Shown here: one piece after another, positions 317 to 6,379 of the stretch
Layout: each line of letters begins with the position of its first letter
Position numbering within the stretch: position 1 is the first letter of the stretch
Assembly: GCA_019359075.1 (NCBI GenBank)
Contig: JAHHIB010000061.1
Span: 1-53,794, forward strand
Length of the DNA: 53,794 nt
Reading direction: 5' to 3'
From: Kalymmatonema hyalinum WJT4-NPBG1
Lineage (GTDB): Bacteria > Cyanobacteriota > Cyanobacteriia > Cyanobacteriales > Nostocaceae
The notes under the pieces: model-generated
What the model saw: only the letters and a program-made list of their open reading frames with translations
Database searches by the model: none
What the model was told of the DNA's origin: nothing
Position numbers and translations under genes: made by a program

Positions 317-460
317 TTAATCATCTAATTTCAACTCTAATTGTGTAACTGTAGTTTTGGATTTACGCGGCTGGCTAGATTTAATTTTAGGTTGACGTTT
401 TGATTTTTTCTCAGCTTCGCGTTTAGCTTTCTCCGCTTTGAGTATTATTCTTTAGTATCT
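317..460 (-). pseudogene. Out-of-frame C-terminal tail of the PIN-like toxin
   Basis: On the minus strand a second frame starts near the 3' end of the PIN-like gene and runs on for about 40 codons to a TAA at 317-319. It encodes a basic, Lys-rich tail (KAEKAKREAEKKSKRQ, then a Ser/Lys stretch, ending QLELKLDD). It has no start of its own and overlaps the last codons of the upstream frame, where both frames read Lys/Leu-rich sequence. The simplest reading is a one-base indel around 430-460 that cut the tail off the toxin. This is inferred from frame continuity and composition. A chance open frame is the alternative. Confidence 0.4.
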
Positions 461-872
461 TGAGAAGCTTATTGTGATTTTTCCAAACCCGAACCTTGCC
501 AAACTTGTAAACTTTAGCAATAAATGGTGCTTGATTACTTTGGGCAAAGTTCTCCATTTGCTCCAATGCTTGGGCAAAGATAGTTGCCATCTCTTCTCCA
601 GTCACATTCCCCAAAGATAATACAAAAACTTTCGCATCCGAGCGAGCGATCGCCACTTGCTCCAAAATATTTCGACCAATTGCATCATCTTTGGTGAGAA
701 TTAACCAACCTCTTTGACTAACTTCAGGAAGCCATTCAGTATCGGGTGAATCCGGTGAAAAGTGGTCTTCATGAACTTCCACCTTTGCACCTGCATTACG
801 TAGTGCATCTGCTACATATTTTCTTCCCAAGGCTCGATCAATAAAAAAAGTCGGCTTCTCTGCTTTAATCAC
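423..872 (-). CDS. PIN-like (DUF5615-type) toxin of a toxin-antitoxin pair
   Basis: A 149-residue protein starting FFIDRALGRKYVADALRNAG and continuing with DTEWLPEVSQRGW and ILTKDDAIGRN. Early Asp residues plus a LTKD strand are the pattern of compact PIN-like/DUF5615 proteins, usually metal-dependent RNases in type II toxin-antitoxin pairs. The start is GTG at 870-872 and overlaps the stop of the upstream DUF433 gene by four bases (GTGA), so translation of the two is probably coupled. The C-terminus may be frameshifted, since a Lys-rich tail continues in another frame to 317. RNase activity is inferred from the family and the pairing. Confidence 0.65.
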   Translation of the reverse strand: MIKAEKPTFFIDRALGRKYVADALRNAGAKVEVHEDHFSPDSPDTEWLPEVSQRGWLILTKDDAIGRNILEQVAIARSDAKVFVLSLGNVTGEEMATIFAQALEQMENFAQSNQAPFIAKVYKFGKVRVWKNHNKLLKILKNNTQSGES

Positions 873-1588
873 GCTGCTTGGGACAAAGATAATTCACATC
901 GAATAGCTTCTTCAACCTGGAGGCGATCGCAGCCGTAATCATCTGCTAAATTATCAATCGACTCTCCTGCTTTATACCGTTCTGCCAAAAGAGCCGTCGG
1001 AATTCCCGTACCCACCAAGACTGGACGACCAAATGATATTCTGGGGTCAATAACCAAAGTCTTGGGAGATTCTTGTTCCATCAGATTTTCATTGAGTCTA
1101 GTAAACGGGAAAAGCTTGTTCGCTACACCAGTTTCATCTAGTTCAATTCGCTTTAGTAAATGCTTTAGAACTTCACGCATTGCCAGTTGACCGTCCTGTG
1201 AAGCACTGATTAACTTTCCCACCGATTCAACAAACAAATCAACTCCATCTGTTTGGAACTCAATCCGAGCGAGAGGATGAGGTACATTGAATTGACGGTC
1301 AACATAATCTAAGGCTGTACGAACTTTGTCTAAGCGAATTTGATGATTCTTACGAATAACTCGTAGTATATGAGCCTCTACCAAATTAGTAAATGAAAGC
1401 TGTGGTATCTCTGGATTTGGAAGCTCAATGAGTGGTTGAAAAAAGCGCTTACCTTCTGCTGTAGGGTAAAACCGACCATGAAGCCACGAACGCAACGTCC
1501 CCACCGGAATCAGCAAATAACGTGCTGCTTCAGCAATGGAGTAAGTGGGGATATTCCGTAAATCTAGTTTTTCGTAAGCTGTGGTCAT
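869..1588 (-). CDS. DUF433-type antitoxin with N-terminal helix-turn-helix
   Basis: This gives 239 residues from ATG 1586-1588 (MTTAYEKLDLRN); a longer frame from 1639 adds 17 unlikely residues. The N-terminal part (PTYSIAEAARYLLIPVGTLR) looks like a MerR/excisionase-type DNA-binding helix-turn-helix. The C-terminal part (ISFGRPVLVGTGIPTALLAE, then a DNLADDYGCD segment) is a typical DUF433 domain. Such proteins are usually antitoxins encoded just before a PIN-like toxin, as here with a four-base overlap. The likely role is to neutralise the toxin and repress its own promoter. The family call is firm; the exact mechanism is inferred. Confidence 0.7.
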   Translation of the reverse strand: MTTAYEKLDLRNIPTYSIAEAARYLLIPVGTLRSWLHGRFYPTAEGKRFFQPLIELPNPEIPQLSFTNLVEAHILRVIRKNHQIRLDKVRTALDYVDRQFNVPHPLARIEFQTDGVDLFVESVGKLISASQDGQLAMREVLKHLLKRIELDETGVANKLFPFTRLNENLMEQESPKTLVIDPRISFGRPVLVGTGIPTALLAERYKAGESIDNLADDYGCDRLQVEEAIRCELSLSQAA

Positions 1589-1652
1589 TTTGCAAACGCT
1601 AATGATATCCCATGATTGATCATAACCAACAGCGCACATCTATGATCCGTGT

Positions 1653-1756
1653 CTGGCGCTCCGAGCGATCCAAAATGTAGTGTCGTGGTGCGATCGCCTC
1701 CGGCACTGCGCTCCGCGCAATCGCCTTTATGCGGGCACGCTACGCGATCGCGCCAG
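1653..1756. repeat. REP-like palindromic repeat with HIP1 sites
   Basis: A GC-rich stretch between the antitoxin and the RAYT remnant. It is bounded by CTGGCGC (1653-1659) and its inverse GCGCCAG (1750-1756), with inner GCGATCGC octamers and GCGCTCCG/CGCGCAATCGCC half-palindromes. RAYT transposases are known to sit beside REP palindromes, so this may be its cognate repeat. Similar wording (GTGGTGCGAT) recurs at the broken end of the integrase near 6390. Confidence 0.45.
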
Positions 1757-2025
1757 TTGTCTTTCATCCCAAAAACAAATCTCTTATGCCCCGTCAGCCT
1801 CGTCAAATCAAACCCGATTACTGCTACCATATCACCACGCGTTGCAACAACAGAGAATTCCGCTTGACACGCTTGGAATGTCGTCAAGTCTTTCTTTATG
1901 CCATCAAAAAAGCACAGGAAAAGTATGGGTTTAAGCTCTATGCATTGTGCATTATGTCGAATCACGTACATTATTTGTTAGAACCCAAGCAGCCAGAAGA
2001 CCTTCCCAAAATTATGCACTGGCAA

Positions 2026-2083
2026 CCCCTTTGGGGAAGTCAAAAGTTAAAAGTCAAAAGTCAAAAGTTAAAAGTCAAAAATA
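2026..2083. repeat. Left inverted end: mini-palindrome plus six AAGTCAA-type heptads
   Basis: CCCCTTTGGGG followed by tandem seven-base units (AAGTCAA or AAGTTAA) ending in AAAAATAAG. Its reverse complement matches the right end at 2503-2550 in unit, spacing and terminal palindrome. Confidence 0.7.
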
Positions 2084-2135
2084 AGTATTTTAAGACTATG
2101 GTGTGTTAATATTTTAACATTAGCTTTTTTTGAGA

Positions 2136-2501
2136 ATGAGTAATTACATACCAATTTCTGATAGAACATTTGAGTTTGCTATTAGAATAACCAAGCTTTG
2201 TTCTTACCTAGATAAACAACCAGGAACACCAAGATTGCTAGCTGCTCAGTTATTTAGATCTGGTACATCAATCGGTGCAAATATTGAAGAATCTCGTTCG
2301 GCTGAAAGTGATAAAGATTTTATCAGCAAGCAATCGATAGCCCTAAAAGAGGCAAAAGAGACAAGATATTGGCTAAAGCTATTAATTAAGTCGGAAATAA
2401 TATCTGAGTCACAAATAGACAATCTTTTAGATGAATGCGAACAATTGATTAAAATTATTGCTAAATCAATAGTAACAACTAAAGAAAAGTTGAATAAATA
2501 A
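2136..2501 (+). CDS. Four-helix-bundle protein (S23/IVP family)
   Basis: 121 residues from ATG 2136; a TTG two codons earlier is also possible. The sequence has the hallmarks of the family first found inside 23S rRNA intervening sequences and related to Avd of diversity-generating retroelements: an FEFAIRITKL helix, QLFRSGTSIGANIEES, an ALKEAKETRYWLKLL helix and a final LLDECEQLIKIIAKSI helix. Family members form pentameric barrels and some bind nucleic acid, but no cellular function is established. Here it is the sole gene between inverted heptad repeats within a broken transposase, so it may be the cargo of a mobile cassette. Its AT-rich composition differs from the flanking transposase. 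Confidence 0.8.
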   Translation: MSNYIPISDRTFEFAIRITKLCSYLDKQPGTPRLLAAQLFRSGTSIGANIEESRSAESDKDFISKQSIALKEAKETRYWLKLLIKSEIISESQIDNLLDECEQLIKIIAKSIVTTKEKLNK

Positions 2502-2502
2502 A

Positions 2503-2550
2503 TTTTTGACTTTTGACTTTTGACTTTTGACTTTTGACTTCCCGATAGGG
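2503..2550. repeat. Right inverted end: five TTTTGAC heptads plus mini-palindrome
   Basis: Five tandem TTTTGAC units followed by TTCCCGATAGGG, immediately next to the resumed transposase sequence (GAG TGG CAT). It is the mirror of the left end. Confidence 0.7.
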
Positions 2551-2907
2551 AGTGGCATCCAGCGTTTTTGCAACTGGGGAAAACTTTGGAAGAGTGCGCT
2601 GCCAAATATCGGGGATTTTGTAAAAAATATCGACCACAGGCAAAGCCAGAAAAACGAAATCATTGGGGTAGCAGCTTTTTGCCATCGGTAACAAAGGGCG
2701 GTAAGTCGAAGAAATCTTCACCGGGACAGATGAGCCTACCTTGGAACAAGCAGAGGGTGACGGAGAGTACGGAGGTGCATGAGGTAGCAGAAAAATTTAT
2801 CAACGCAAACTGCTATATTCCCCCGGTGCCAGGTATCGGATTTATGAAATGCTGATTATTGCGTGGGAAAGGAGGCTTTTATAAATATTTACAAACTTCT
2901 GAAAGCC

Positions 2908-5900
2908 TTAAATGTTACACTTTACAAGTCGCAGCGCGAGAAAAGAATTCGTCCCCAGAAGGTATGAGTAGTAAATGGTAGGTAGGCTTCCCCGAAAAGG
3001 GTTTTCTTTTATACGCTTGTACAGTTCTGAGTTCCTCACAAAACCCGTTTCATTGTCCCTTGTTTTTTTGTCATCATACCATCCAACTGCCGTGGCAAAG
3101 CGAAGATAATTTTCAAGATCTTTGCTAGTCCAGTCTTCTGGTTTTATACCCAGCCGATTCCCGGTGCTAGTCCATATTTCCTTTTGCACACTAAAACCAA
3201 AACGTTTGTCGGAATTGGCAACCCAAAGTTGGTCTATTTTTCGCAGGTCAGGACAAGAAAAATTATTAATGTCGTCATCATCTAAATATCGTTGTTCTTC
3301 TCTTTGAGCAACATTAAGCATGAGTTGGTCTGTTTGTCCGTCAGCAGCTTCCCAATCTTTAGCCTTCAAATAATATTCAAGTTGAGCATATAAATGTTTA
3401 GTGAGAGATGCTTCAACCTGTTTTCTCAAGTCTGGTTCTGTATTATTTGTAGAGAGTAGCTCAATTAAACCTCGATGAACAGATTCAATATTTTCACCTG
3501 TAAGCAACTGAGTGCTTTTAGTAAAATCAGTTTCTTGTGGATGAGTTTTTAAAATTTTAAAGGCTGTAGTGTAAGATTTTATAGCTGCTGACTGAGTTTC
3601 TTTATTTTGAGCTAATAAACTTCCTTGATATTTCTGGAATAATACTTTAATTTGTAAGCCCTGGCTGGAATCTAAATCTTTCTTATTAGCTTTAGCTAAA
3701 AATTCCTTACTTTGCTTAATTTCTTGTTCTGCCTCTTTTAATTTTTTTAGCTGTTGATGTGCTTGTGAACTAGCGGCAAATACTAATGCTTGTTTGAGTT
3801 GGTGATTATTAATGTTAAAAGATAAGGCAGACAGCCTTAAAGCCTCGTTTGAATCAAAAGTAAACCTCTCAAAGCGAGAGTTAGTATTTTTTTGTAATTC
3901 GCCAGCTAATTGATTTAATTGTTGAACAGCTTTAACTTCTTCTTCCGTTTCTTGATTTTTTCTATTTACTTTTTTCAAACTGTCTTCTATATTTTGGATC
4001 TGTGTTTGAAGAAATGATTTCTGCGTTTTAGCTGTATTTAAATTTTGTCTAGCTCTTGCAGCATCTTGCTCAAATTTTGATGCGCTTTCTTTGGAAATTT
4101 TTGCTTGCTGTTGTGCTGCTTTAGCAGTTTTAGTAGCCTCTATTACTTTTTGTTCTGCTGATTTTTCACTTTCTTTAGCTTGCCATTCTTGATTTTTTGC
4201 TTGTGCAGCGCTATCTTGAGCCTTTTTTTCATTTTTCTGAGCTTCTGTCAAACTTTTTTGGGCTTTATCAACTTGTGAATTGGCGGACTTAACCTGTTCA
4301 TTTGCTGCCTCAACCTGCTTTCTAGATAATAGCCCTACAGCTGCTGCTCCCAGAACTGCCAAAACCAAAACAACAATTCCAATACTAATTCGTCGTTGAT
4401 CTGTCTTATTAGCCTCACTTAATACCTGATTCCTTTTCTCTGCTGCTTCCCTATCTTTTTTTCTCTCTCCAATGCTGCTTCTTTTTTTTTTCGCAGCAAT
4501 TTCCTCCTGAATTTCTTTCTCTTTACTAGCTGCTAAAAACTGCCTATCCTGATAACTTAAACTCTTATCTATTGCCCATAATTCAGCTTCTTGTAACGCC
4601 TTTCCCCGCAACAATCGTGACTCATCAGTTCCTCCAGAAGCCACCCAAAAGCGGAAATTCTCAGAATATGGACGCAGGTTTCTTAATTGATTTTCTACCC
4701 AATTCTGGTCAAAAATCTCTTGATATATAGGATTGTAAACTCGTAACTTGTTCTGCTGTCTAACAACCAATCCTGAAAGTTGTAACTCACTTTGCTCTAA
4801 AGTATCATCTGCTGTAATCTCAAATTCCTCCTCCCTCAATCGAATTTGCTGATACAATTCCAGCAAATATCCAGCCCGTTGTTCATCCCGCAAAATTCTC
4901 GCTTGAATCGTTCGCAACGGTGAGCGATTCGTGTCTAAGGTAGGATAACTTTCAGTAGAATAAACCACCACTAACTTAAGTTTTTTCCAAATTTTACCCA
5001 TCCTGTCCCCTTGTTTGGCAGTTTCATACCAACTCCGCAGCAGTGGGGCAAAATCGGAGAAAATATTTTCACATTTAAACAGCCGCTCAAAATTATCTAT
5101 GGCAAAAACAACAGGACTATCAATTCCTGATAATAAATATTTTTGAAAGTAACGAGTACAGCTTATATTCAGCCCGGTACTATCTTGCCAGTAGTCATCC
5201 AACTTAGCTTCCAGTTCCAAACTGTCAGAAACATTGATGCACAACCACTGCAAGAATGTCTTCAAGTCTGCTAGGGCAGAACTATCAGCTAGCTTCAAAT
5301 CTAATTTTGCTGTTTGATAACCTTGCTGTCTTGCATAGTCGAGTAATTTCTCTAACAGCAATGTTTTACCCATCTTTTGCGGAGCTTTGATACGAATCAG
5401 CGCACCAGGTTGCAAAATAGCTTTATAGCATTTTTCTTCAATGGGTGGGCGTTGAATATATATGTTTGTTGATATTGCTGACGAGTTTGCAGATGATTCC
5501 TCTGAGGAAAACTGAAGCGGTAAATTACTTTTAGGGATGAGTTGAGGTATTAACTCTTGTGCTATCCCTGCCATGCGAATGACACTACAACCAAGTTTAT
5601 AAGCAAACTCATAATTTTGACCTGCTCCTAGAGCATCATAAAAACCCACAGCAAATTCAATTGCTGCCTTATCTTGAATTGCCTGACTCATACCCACCAC
5701 ATAATTAATGTGCCGGGCTATTTCTTGTGCCTGATATTTTGAGTAGCAAGCATTGAGAACAACACACTCTATTTTGTTAGCGAATAATTGAAATAATCCA
5801 GCTAAAGCTTCTGCATCAACTAACTTGGTTTGACCCGTTTCATCTTCAAAAACCAAGCCTTCTTCTCCAGAACCATGCCCAGAAAAGTGGATTATGTGTG

Positions 5901-6099
5901 GTTCGTATTCCAAAATAGCTCTGTGGATGTCCCTGTAGCGTACCGCTTCTGCTGTATCTATTGAATAATCATCACGCTTCTTTGCTCGTTTTAATCCCTC
6001 TTTAATTTCGCGCATCTCCTCATCCAGACGAAGTCGGCTGGTTCCTTTAGGATTTGCTGATAACAGCAGGATTTTTCGAGTTCGATTATTACTACTCAT
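2908..6099 (-). CDS. CHAT peptidase-AAA ATPase-membrane-coiled coil-GUN4 protein
   Basis: 1063 residues from ATG 6097-6099; a GTG 11 codons upstream (6132) is also open and is used for numbering here. Domains: CHAT caspase-like peptidase about 18-200, with His86 in HFSGHG and Cys129 in LNACYS; an AAA_35-like ATPase about 228-480, with P-loop APQKMGKT (250-257) and Asp/Asn-rich strand VVFAIDNFERL; a basic coiled coil; one membrane helix about 582-602; a long Ala/Lys/Gln coiled coil about 605-745; a helical region; and a GUN4 domain from about 915 (DWEAADGQTDQLML, DLRKIDQLWV, RFGFSVQ). GUN4 domains bind Mg-porphyrins. This resembles an NLR-like switch with a protease effector and a tetrapyrrole-binding end. 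Both catalytic residues are present. Substrate and trigger are unknown. Confidence 0.75.
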   Translation of the reverse strand: MSSNNRTRKILLLSANPKGTSRLRLDEEMREIKEGLKRAKKRDDYSIDTAEAVRYRDIHRAILEYEPHIIHFSGHGSGEEGLVFEDETGQTKLVDAEALAGLFQLFANKIECVVLNACYSKYQAQEIARHINYVVGMSQAIQDKAAIEFAVGFYDALGAGQNYEFAYKLGCSVIRMAGIAQELIPQLIPKSNLPLQFSSEESSANSSAISTNIYIQRPPIEEKCYKAILQPGALIRIKAPQKMGKTLLLEKLLDYARQQGYQTAKLDLKLADSSALADLKTFLQWLCINVSDSLELEAKLDDYWQDSTGLNISCTRYFQKYLLSGIDSPVVFAIDNFERLFKCENIFSDFAPLLRSWYETAKQGDRMGKIWKKLKLVVVYSTESYPTLDTNRSPLRTIQARILRDEQRAGYLLELYQQIRLREEEFEITADDTLEQSELQLSGLVVRQQNKLRVYNPIYQEIFDQNWVENQLRNLRPYSENFRFWVASGGTDESRLLRGKALQEAELWAIDKSLSYQDRQFLAASKEKEIQEEIAAKKKRSSIGERKKDREAAEKRNQVLSEANKTDQRRISIGIVVLVLAVLGAAAVGLLSRKQVEAANEQVKSANSQVDKAQKSLTEAQKNEKKAQDSAAQAKNQEWQAKESEKSAEQKVIEATKTAKAAQQQAKISKESASKFEQDAARARQNLNTAKTQKSFLQTQIQNIEDSLKKVNRKNQETEEEVKAVQQLNQLAGELQKNTNSRFERFTFDSNEALRLSALSFNINNHQLKQALVFAASSQAHQQLKKLKEAEQEIKQSKEFLAKANKKDLDSSQGLQIKVLFQKYQGSLLAQNKETQSAAIKSYTTAFKILKTHPQETDFTKSTQLLTGENIESVHRGLIELLSTNNTEPDLRKQVEASLTKHLYAQLEYYLKAKDWEAADGQTDQLMLNVAQREEQRYLDDDDINNFSCPDLRKIDQLWVANSDKRFGFSVQKEIWTSTGNRLGIKPEDWTSKDLENYLRFATAVGWYDDKKTRDNETGFVRNSELYKRIKENPFRGSLPTIYYSYLLGTNSFLALRLVKCNI

Positions 6100-6379
6100 T
6101 AAAAGCGATCGCTTCCTAGAAACCTGATTCACTCATCAGGGTGACATTATCTTCGATAGCACCGCAAGGACGACAAAACAATTTGTTACTCAACAACTGC
6201 TGGCACACAAAGACGTGCCAGTTCCAAATTGCCAAATGAAGCGATCAGAAGCTTGTGCTGCCGTTGTTGCTGGATAGTTTACAAGCGAGCCAGCGCCTCC
6301 TTCATCGTACGTACTATGTGACACTCATGCCAATGAGTGCAATTCGATTTGTAGCAAAATAGTTTGCGATCGCCGCAAA

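Follow-up and report, generated by a model that had tools for sequence, protein, structure and literature searches.

Background

Intervening sequences (IVSs) of 23S rRNA are excised by RNase III without re-joining. The IVSs of Coxiella and Leptospira share with the unit described here the S23 protein family name, a stem with the open reading frame (ORF) in its loop and a sporadic distribution (PMC4990558). In Coxiella, tandem heptamers stand ahead of the S23 ORF, as they do in our unit, and RNase III is reported to cut the Coxiella IVS at the first repeat; the Coxiella ORF is reported to be decaying, whereas the ORF studied here is under purifying selection (PMC4990558). Older work proposed that S23-coding IVS elements are mobile and that the ORF serves this mobility, and the paper that recounts it describes both role and mobility as unclear (PMC4990558). 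Our unit lies in positions 1 to 53,794 of contig JAHHIB010000061.1 of Kalymmatonema hyalinum WJT4-NPBG1, a stretch called the window below. It resembles inserts that had been described mostly in ribosomal RNA genes, but differs from the 23S rRNA IVSs in that such units lie in or between protein genes, that both arms are heptad arrays and that mini-hairpins stand at the ends.

Small dispersed hairpin repeats of Nostoc, treated by Elhai in 2008, reportedly often lie inside heptad arrays, and we know of no S23 gene or mirrored element described for them. REPs, the repeats of REPIN-RAYT elements, have a GTAG or CGTC tag at the base of the hairpin. REPIN-RAYT elements resemble the window copy in their inverted hairpins and in its RAYT context; in contrast, the tag motif was not seen here and no Y1 transposase was found among the searched neighbours of distant units. 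Tandem heptads like those of our unit are known from Xanthomonas, Nostoc and Beggiatoaceae, with inverted pairs reported in Xanthomonas, but the accessible parts of these papers describe no tie to S23 genes (PMC4692102, PMC4679880). A search of open-licence papers found no general link of S23 genes to inverted heptads. The likeness of PF05635 to Avd, the accessory protein of diversity-generating retroelements (DGRs), is already in print (PMC10053308).

Structure of the unit in the window

The window unit is an S23 ORF between inverted arrays of tandem heptads, additionally capped by mini-hairpins (Table 1). The initial annotation, read from the sequence, had described a lone S23/Avd-like gene between mirrored ends of palindrome plus heptads, and this is confirmed: the ORF matches TIGR02436 (E 1.5e-29, 102.4 bits, cut-off 24) and PF05635 (E 1.6e-23, 83.4 bits, cut-off 33.8). 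Its location inside a RAYT gene is also borne out, on the left by Y1_Tnp/REP-Tyr profile matches and on the right by DNA identity to RAYT copies, the right flank by itself giving no family-model match in profile searches. The alignment of the left flank to the paralogue L114 stops at position 2023. The RAYT middle that had been reported missing is indeed absent, by ~230 bp, in comparison with two insert-free copies: L114, in the same genome, has 232 nt at the insert position, and L113, from a congener, has 228 nt. L114 carries its own frameshift and the L113 alignment is without the N-terminal part, so neither copy is a fully intact gene. When up to 3 mismatches are allowed, the motif of the RAYT right end is matched 13 times across 3 congeneric genomes, the control giving 0.

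Table 1. Features of the unit and of the interrupted RAYT element, in window coordinates
Feature	Position	Strand	Evidence
RAYT / Y1 transposase, N-terminal part, gene interrupted	1786..2025	+	PF01797 E 6.4e-13, NF047646 E 9.8e-13 (searched 1786-2109)
Left terminal mini-hairpin CCCC-TTT-GGGG, CCCCTTTGGGG	2026..2036		Read in sequence; same place in related copies, stem and loop vary
Left arm, AAGTCAA tandem heptads, 6.3 copies	2037..2080	+	Pairs with right arm in predicted RNA fold
S23 / four-helix-bundle ORF, 121 aa, ATG at 2136	2136..2501	+	TIGR02436, PF05635
Right arm, TTTTGAC tandem heptads, 5.3 copies, inverted relative to left arm	2504..2540	+	100% matches; predicted fold
Right terminal mini-hairpin CCC-GATA-GGG, CCCGATAGGG	2541..2550		Sequence; comparison of ends among copies
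RAYT C-terminal part, gene interrupted	2551..2855	+	77-78% DNA identity to insert-free RAYT loci L113, L114
RAYT-element conserved right end with hairpin	2914..2941	+	Overlaps GUN4 gene 3' end, antisense

The complementary ends are predicted to close a long stem around the ORF, as in 23S rRNA IVSs, although the unit is located in a RAYT gene and not within a 23S rRNA gene. The fold has a z score of -8.5 and none of 100 shuffles is equally stable, so the stem is not due to chance. The region 1500-3200 has no Rfam match at E<=1. Lone AAGTCAA arrays are frequent in the window genome (a 19-mer with at most one mismatch has 35 matches at 17 places, the window included; control 0), and the distinctive feature is the mirrored heptad pair around the S23 gene, not a single array.

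Other features of the window were noted. The RAYT-element right end (2914-2990) is antisense to the 3' end of an AAA/GUN4-kind gene (2908-6132, minus strand; PF14516, PF05419), an overlap also present at L111, L113, L173, L176, L180 and L188-L200. In most tails of the GUN4-kind genes, GHLP is followed by a tract that precedes SRVETCK or ASRLVNCN-like ends; the 16 tracts measure 36-157 nt and differ between loci in length, sequence and frame. Pooled (n=16), they contain A 0.31, C 0.30, G 0.17 and T 0.22; some are nearly all A and C on the RAYT strand, with a strong A/C bias only in some. At 423-1639 (minus strand), a PIN-like gene (PF18478) adjoins HTH/DUF433 genes (PF21321, PF04255), possibly a toxin-antitoxin pair.

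Mirrored arms around S23 genes of many phyla

The layout is a general feature around S23 genes in many phyla, of which the window is one case. One genome per species was scanned with peptide patterns of one S23 subfamily and the best 80 of at least 497 S23 loci were taken, so that the family-wide rate of arms may differ from the rates given here. These 80 loci span Cyanobacteria, Verrucomicrobia, Bacteroidota, Planctomycetes, Acidobacteria, Chloroflexi, Patescibacteria, a spirochete, Gammaproteobacteria and others. Arms were scored by local alignment of the 250 nt upstream against the reverse complement of the 250 nt downstream, and 61 of the 63 distant loci among the 80 were scored, two having too little flank. 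Inverted arms reach a score of 12 at 51/61 distant S23 loci compared with 18/374 ORFs elsewhere in the same loci, and a score of 15 at 35/61 compared with 10/374; in direct orientation, a score of 12 is reached at 16/61 and 24/374, respectively. Arms match within their own unit in these 51 of 61 cases, and with the arms of foreign units in 16% of 3660 pairings.

Most of the distant arms consist of tandem heptads, whose sequences are diverse (AATTACG, AATTAAG, AGTGAAG, GAATGAT, AATACCC and others). Of all units scoring at least 14, 58 of 64 have a left arm that is more than half purine. A strict test for period 7 is passed by 25/63 upstream flanks, 23/63 downstream flanks and 15/63 loci on both sides, the figures for 475 control ORFs being 20, 17 and 3. 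No distant S23 flank passes at periods 3-6 or 8-13, 14 being the only other period found; among 30 Nostocaceae loci, three flanks also pass at periods 10, 11 and 13.

In the Nostocaceae, inverted arms are present at 33/46 S23 loci and 2/55 DUF433/HEPN loci (Fisher 9e-14), and a period-7 array on at least one side at 38/46 and 2/55. The S23 set consists of 26 loci scored of the best 30 listed (14 with inverted arms) and 20 lower-ranked loci chosen before their sequence was seen (19 with inverted arms); the controls are 29 of 30 DUF433 and 26 of 30 HEPN loci, the remainder having flanks that are too short. Outside this set are L119-L138 (n=20), many of them near-identical copies in G018, G126 and G088; four of the 20 score at least 12, none of them from the near-identical groups of G018 and G126, whose multicopy S23 genes (L127-L132 and L134 in G018, L119-L125 in G126) are without mirrored arms. 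An ISL3 transposase gene (PF01610) lies upstream of the S23 genes of L129 and L064, both of which score 8 for inverted arms. The possibility that S23 genes entered arrays already present was considered and is disfavoured, because direct rather than inverted flanks would result and a direct score of at least 12 is found at 9 of the 46 Nostocaceae loci against the 33 for inverted arms.

Heptad arrays also exist without S23 units. An inverted partner within 700 nt, a measure that differs from the arm score, was found for 12 of 109 arrays in sampled Nostocaceae DNA. Across 10 sampled genomes heptad load shows no relation to S23 copy number, and the candidate explanation that this load is a product of S23 genes was therefore rejected: regions L441-L445 of G031 have 44 period-7 arrays per 100 kb and this genome has no TIGR02436 match among the matches listed, while a genome with 15 S23 matches has zero arrays in 80 kb. 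Hairpin-plus-heptad ends are not diagnostic alone, since they also occur solitarily and in unrelated mini-transposons (repeat families of G058 and G005). In the 10 copies sampled of the G058 family (L231-L240), which have CTAGTAC..GTACTAG-like ends and are too short for an S23 gene, just one of the two ends bears a hairpin and AAGTCAA heptads.

Close copies and their junctions

Among the protein matches listed for 217 family genomes are 22 further S23 copies whose identity is 77-97% and another with 65%. Several of them are truncated, and together with the window's copy they fall in 12 genera. The comparison set (n=24) holds the window, three congeneric copies and 20 others, the window genome being placed in one genus with G005 and G058. 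Several close copies occur per genome at different places, many of the 24 in or beside RAYT-element DNA. Inverted arms score at least 12 in 16/24; truncation affects most of the other eight but not G129. Of the ends found, 21 of 22 on the right and 14 of 17 on the left have a stem immediately beyond the arm, compared with 0.10 for random 16-mers of the same loci, one left-end miss (G071) being cut by the search window. Repeated boundaries at the palindromes, named by the initial annotation as support for its reading, are present. The terminal stems differ by compensatory change (CCCC/GGGG, CCC/GGG, CCGC/GCGG).

The DNA that adjoins these hairpins differs by copy. Left junctions vary, some falling within the RAYT gene and others beyond it, with loss and not duplication of target DNA. 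On the right, the junction precedes the RAYT C-terminus, directly follows the ORF or coincides with the conserved right end of the RAYT element. The leaders of the two G005 copies are 100% identical over 101 nt, while the neighbouring RAYT pieces have identities of 69% and 75%, a pattern consistent with separate insertion or with gene conversion. The S23 ORFs of close copies appear mosaic by eye. The window copy and one G005 copy may descend from one event, since their GUN4 neighbours are homologous; their left junctions differ.

Unit-free sites

Comparison of filled and empty sites, also suggested at the outset, succeeded in part: unit-free relatives exist at two other sites, and for the window site no clean empty allele was found in 3 congeneric genomes, one of which has a related unit beside a homologous GUN4 gene. 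The first of these sites carries a unit at two places of G088 and in G121. This unit, which belongs to another S23 subfamily, is located at the 3' end of the upstream gene, whose last codons it removes. It begins and finishes with its own inverted arms, and ~10-20 nt of target seem lost, by eye. The same two genes are contiguous at 19 places in 17 genomes among the matches listed, and none of the 14 of these sites tested has a period-7 array; compared with its unit-free relatives here, the arms are the borders of the insert. Also in G121, at L334 (~1216-1347), a non-coding insert of ~130 nt with inverted heptads is nested in an S23 gene that starts at 967.

The second site lies between two genes that we take, from reading their sequence and without a family search, to be cysS and tldD. 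The window's own genome has a degraded S23 gene there, with one in-frame stop and heptad arms. Among the matches listed, an S23 gene is present at this site in 6 further genomes, and the two genes are contiguous in 9, including both congeners. By eye, some contiguous sites retain short stretches that resemble arms, and a scar of similar appearance is present in Scytonema NIES-4073; none of five contiguous sites passes the strict period-7 test. Because arm-like stretches are kept at some unit-free sites, loss of the unit has probably occurred and would explain part of the pattern.

Genomic setting of distant units

An ORF lies within 300 nt of 52 of the 63 distant units on the left and 50 on the right. 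These neighbours are co-directional with the unit in 49/52 cases on the left, 43/50 on the right and 33/39 on both sides. Other genes in the same loci are also mostly co-directional (61/75, 63/76 and 38/55), and the difference is not significant (p 0.06, 0.80 and 0.10), so that the argument from co-orientation is limited to the point that an insert landing freely in either orientation would be co-directional in about half of the cases. The neighbour pairs include mraY|murD (two Flavobacterium species), serC|serA-like, fba|accD, GAPDH|arsJ, nuoD|oxidoreductase-like and histidine-kinase-like|response-regulator-like, some of these matches falling under curated cut-offs, and three Verrucomicrobia loci have an alcohol-dehydrogenase-like left neighbour. 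No Y1 transposase family was found among the searched flanking ORFs of distant loci (10 left, 10 right and further neighbours).

The S23 protein

The S23 protein is under purifying selection, with a median dN/dS of 0.107 (range 0.035-0.206; 66 pairs of 12 close copies), and its identity between phyla reaches 57%. The AlphaFold model of the window protein has a pLDDT of 95. Its nearest solved structure in Foldseek is BT_0352 (2RLD; E 3.7e-7, 42% identity), which is also the sole sequence match among solved structures, followed by Xcc0516 (2GSC). DGR Avd (4DWL) has the four-helix-bundle fold in common but ranks after these two and an unrelated inhibitor fold, with E 0.42 and 14% identity, and the model also resembles the DGR ribonucleoprotein 8UBE in fold. 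The protein has no PADLOC or PHROGs match at E<=0.01, the collections searched for anti-phage defence and phage families, and no relative was confirmed on viral contigs.

Nature and origin of the unit

The unit is best explained, with a probability of roughly two in three, as an intervening-sequence-like insert: an S23 ORF within inverted tandem heptads that can pair into a long stem whose loop contains the ORF. The computed support is that arms accompany S23 genes in many phyla, with period 7 and with matching within units above that across units, and that arms are the insert borders when unit-free relatives are compared at one other site. The 23S rRNA IVSs would, on the best reading, be the already described case of such hairpin inserts. 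Four exact 23S rRNA motifs found no match in any of the 80 loci, so this link to the IVSs rests on protein family, fold and literature. The mobile cassette of the initial annotation survives as a discrete insert with shared ends, and not as a single new mini-element confined to RAYT genes or cyanobacteria.

That the units are resident regulatory cistrons of vertical descent, with hairpin arms acting as structured UTRs that control a useful host protein, seems unlikely. The strong purifying selection would suit such a role, as would recurrent sites such as cysS-tldD in 7 genomes (among the matches listed), mraY-murD in two Flavobacterium species and the alcohol-dehydrogenase-like neighbour of the three Verrucomicrobia loci. 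However, orthologous sites are contiguous in congeners, the unit truncates a gene in G088 and G121, several close copies occur at different places of one genome and the protein identity between phyla is as high as stated above.

A REPIN-like passenger, in which RAYT transposases cut and paste two inverted hairpins in single-stranded form and the S23 gene travels as their cargo, is a quite doubtful alternative. It would account for the many close copies in or near RAYT-element DNA and for terminal hairpins that vary by compensatory change, as in CCCC/GGGG and CCGC/GCGG. Against it stand the searched flanking ORFs of distant loci, with no Y1 transposase family among them, the hairpins of the close copies, at which the GTAG or CGTC tag of REPs was not seen by eye, and the variable left junctions with loss rather than duplication of target DNA.

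An explanation of the arms as the simple-sequence repeats usual in repeat-rich genomes, adjacent to S23 genes by chance and paired by chance or local inversion, is improbable. Arrays are abundant in some Nostocaceae regardless of S23 number, and one study describes heptads of Xanthomonas and Nostoc as generally not associated with mobile elements (PMC4692102). Yet an inverted partner stands within 700 nt of just 12 of the 109 arrays sampled, inverted arms distinguish S23 loci from DUF433/HEPN loci in a pattern that holds across phyla, and the 14 unit-free sites tested at one locus are without arrays. Finally, a stray Avd-like accessory of a DGR acting on the adjacent GUN4 gene, suggested by the fold similarity to 4DWL and 8UBE, by the published resemblance of PF05635 to Avd (PMC10053308) and by the GUN4 tail that differs among loci, is very improbable, as the window protein is far closer to 2RLD and 2GSC than to Avd and the differences among tails concern length and reading frame, in contrast to the adenine-directed variation of DGRs.

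An intervening-sequence-like insert would have spread by insertion and would also have been lost from some sites. It would be co-transcribed within the host transcript, and its stem may then be cut by RNase III or a similar enzyme, as reported for the S23-coding IVSs of 23S rRNA. The S23 protein, a fold relative of Avd, might bind the RNA or DNA of its own unit, and it might help the unit to spread, perhaps with a reverse transcriptase of the host or a nick-making transposase; no recombinase was tied to the unit. A wider proposal is tentative and, as a whole, rather unlikely. S23 genes would define a bacterial class of hairpin-bounded, heptad-armed elements that spread into mRNAs and rRNAs, probably via an RNA stage, with the S23 protein binding the heptad stem and recruiting a reverse transcriptase as Avd does; solitary arrays would in part be relics of such elements, and the rRNA IVSs their rRNA-resident members.

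With the signature of mirrored heptads, positions between co-directional genes and unit-free relatives, mobility, RNA processing and protein binding become testable in common laboratory bacteria and at sites other than rRNA. Excision of the units from mRNAs, if it takes place, would split operon transcripts, and the units may offer a partial origin for the heptad repeats.
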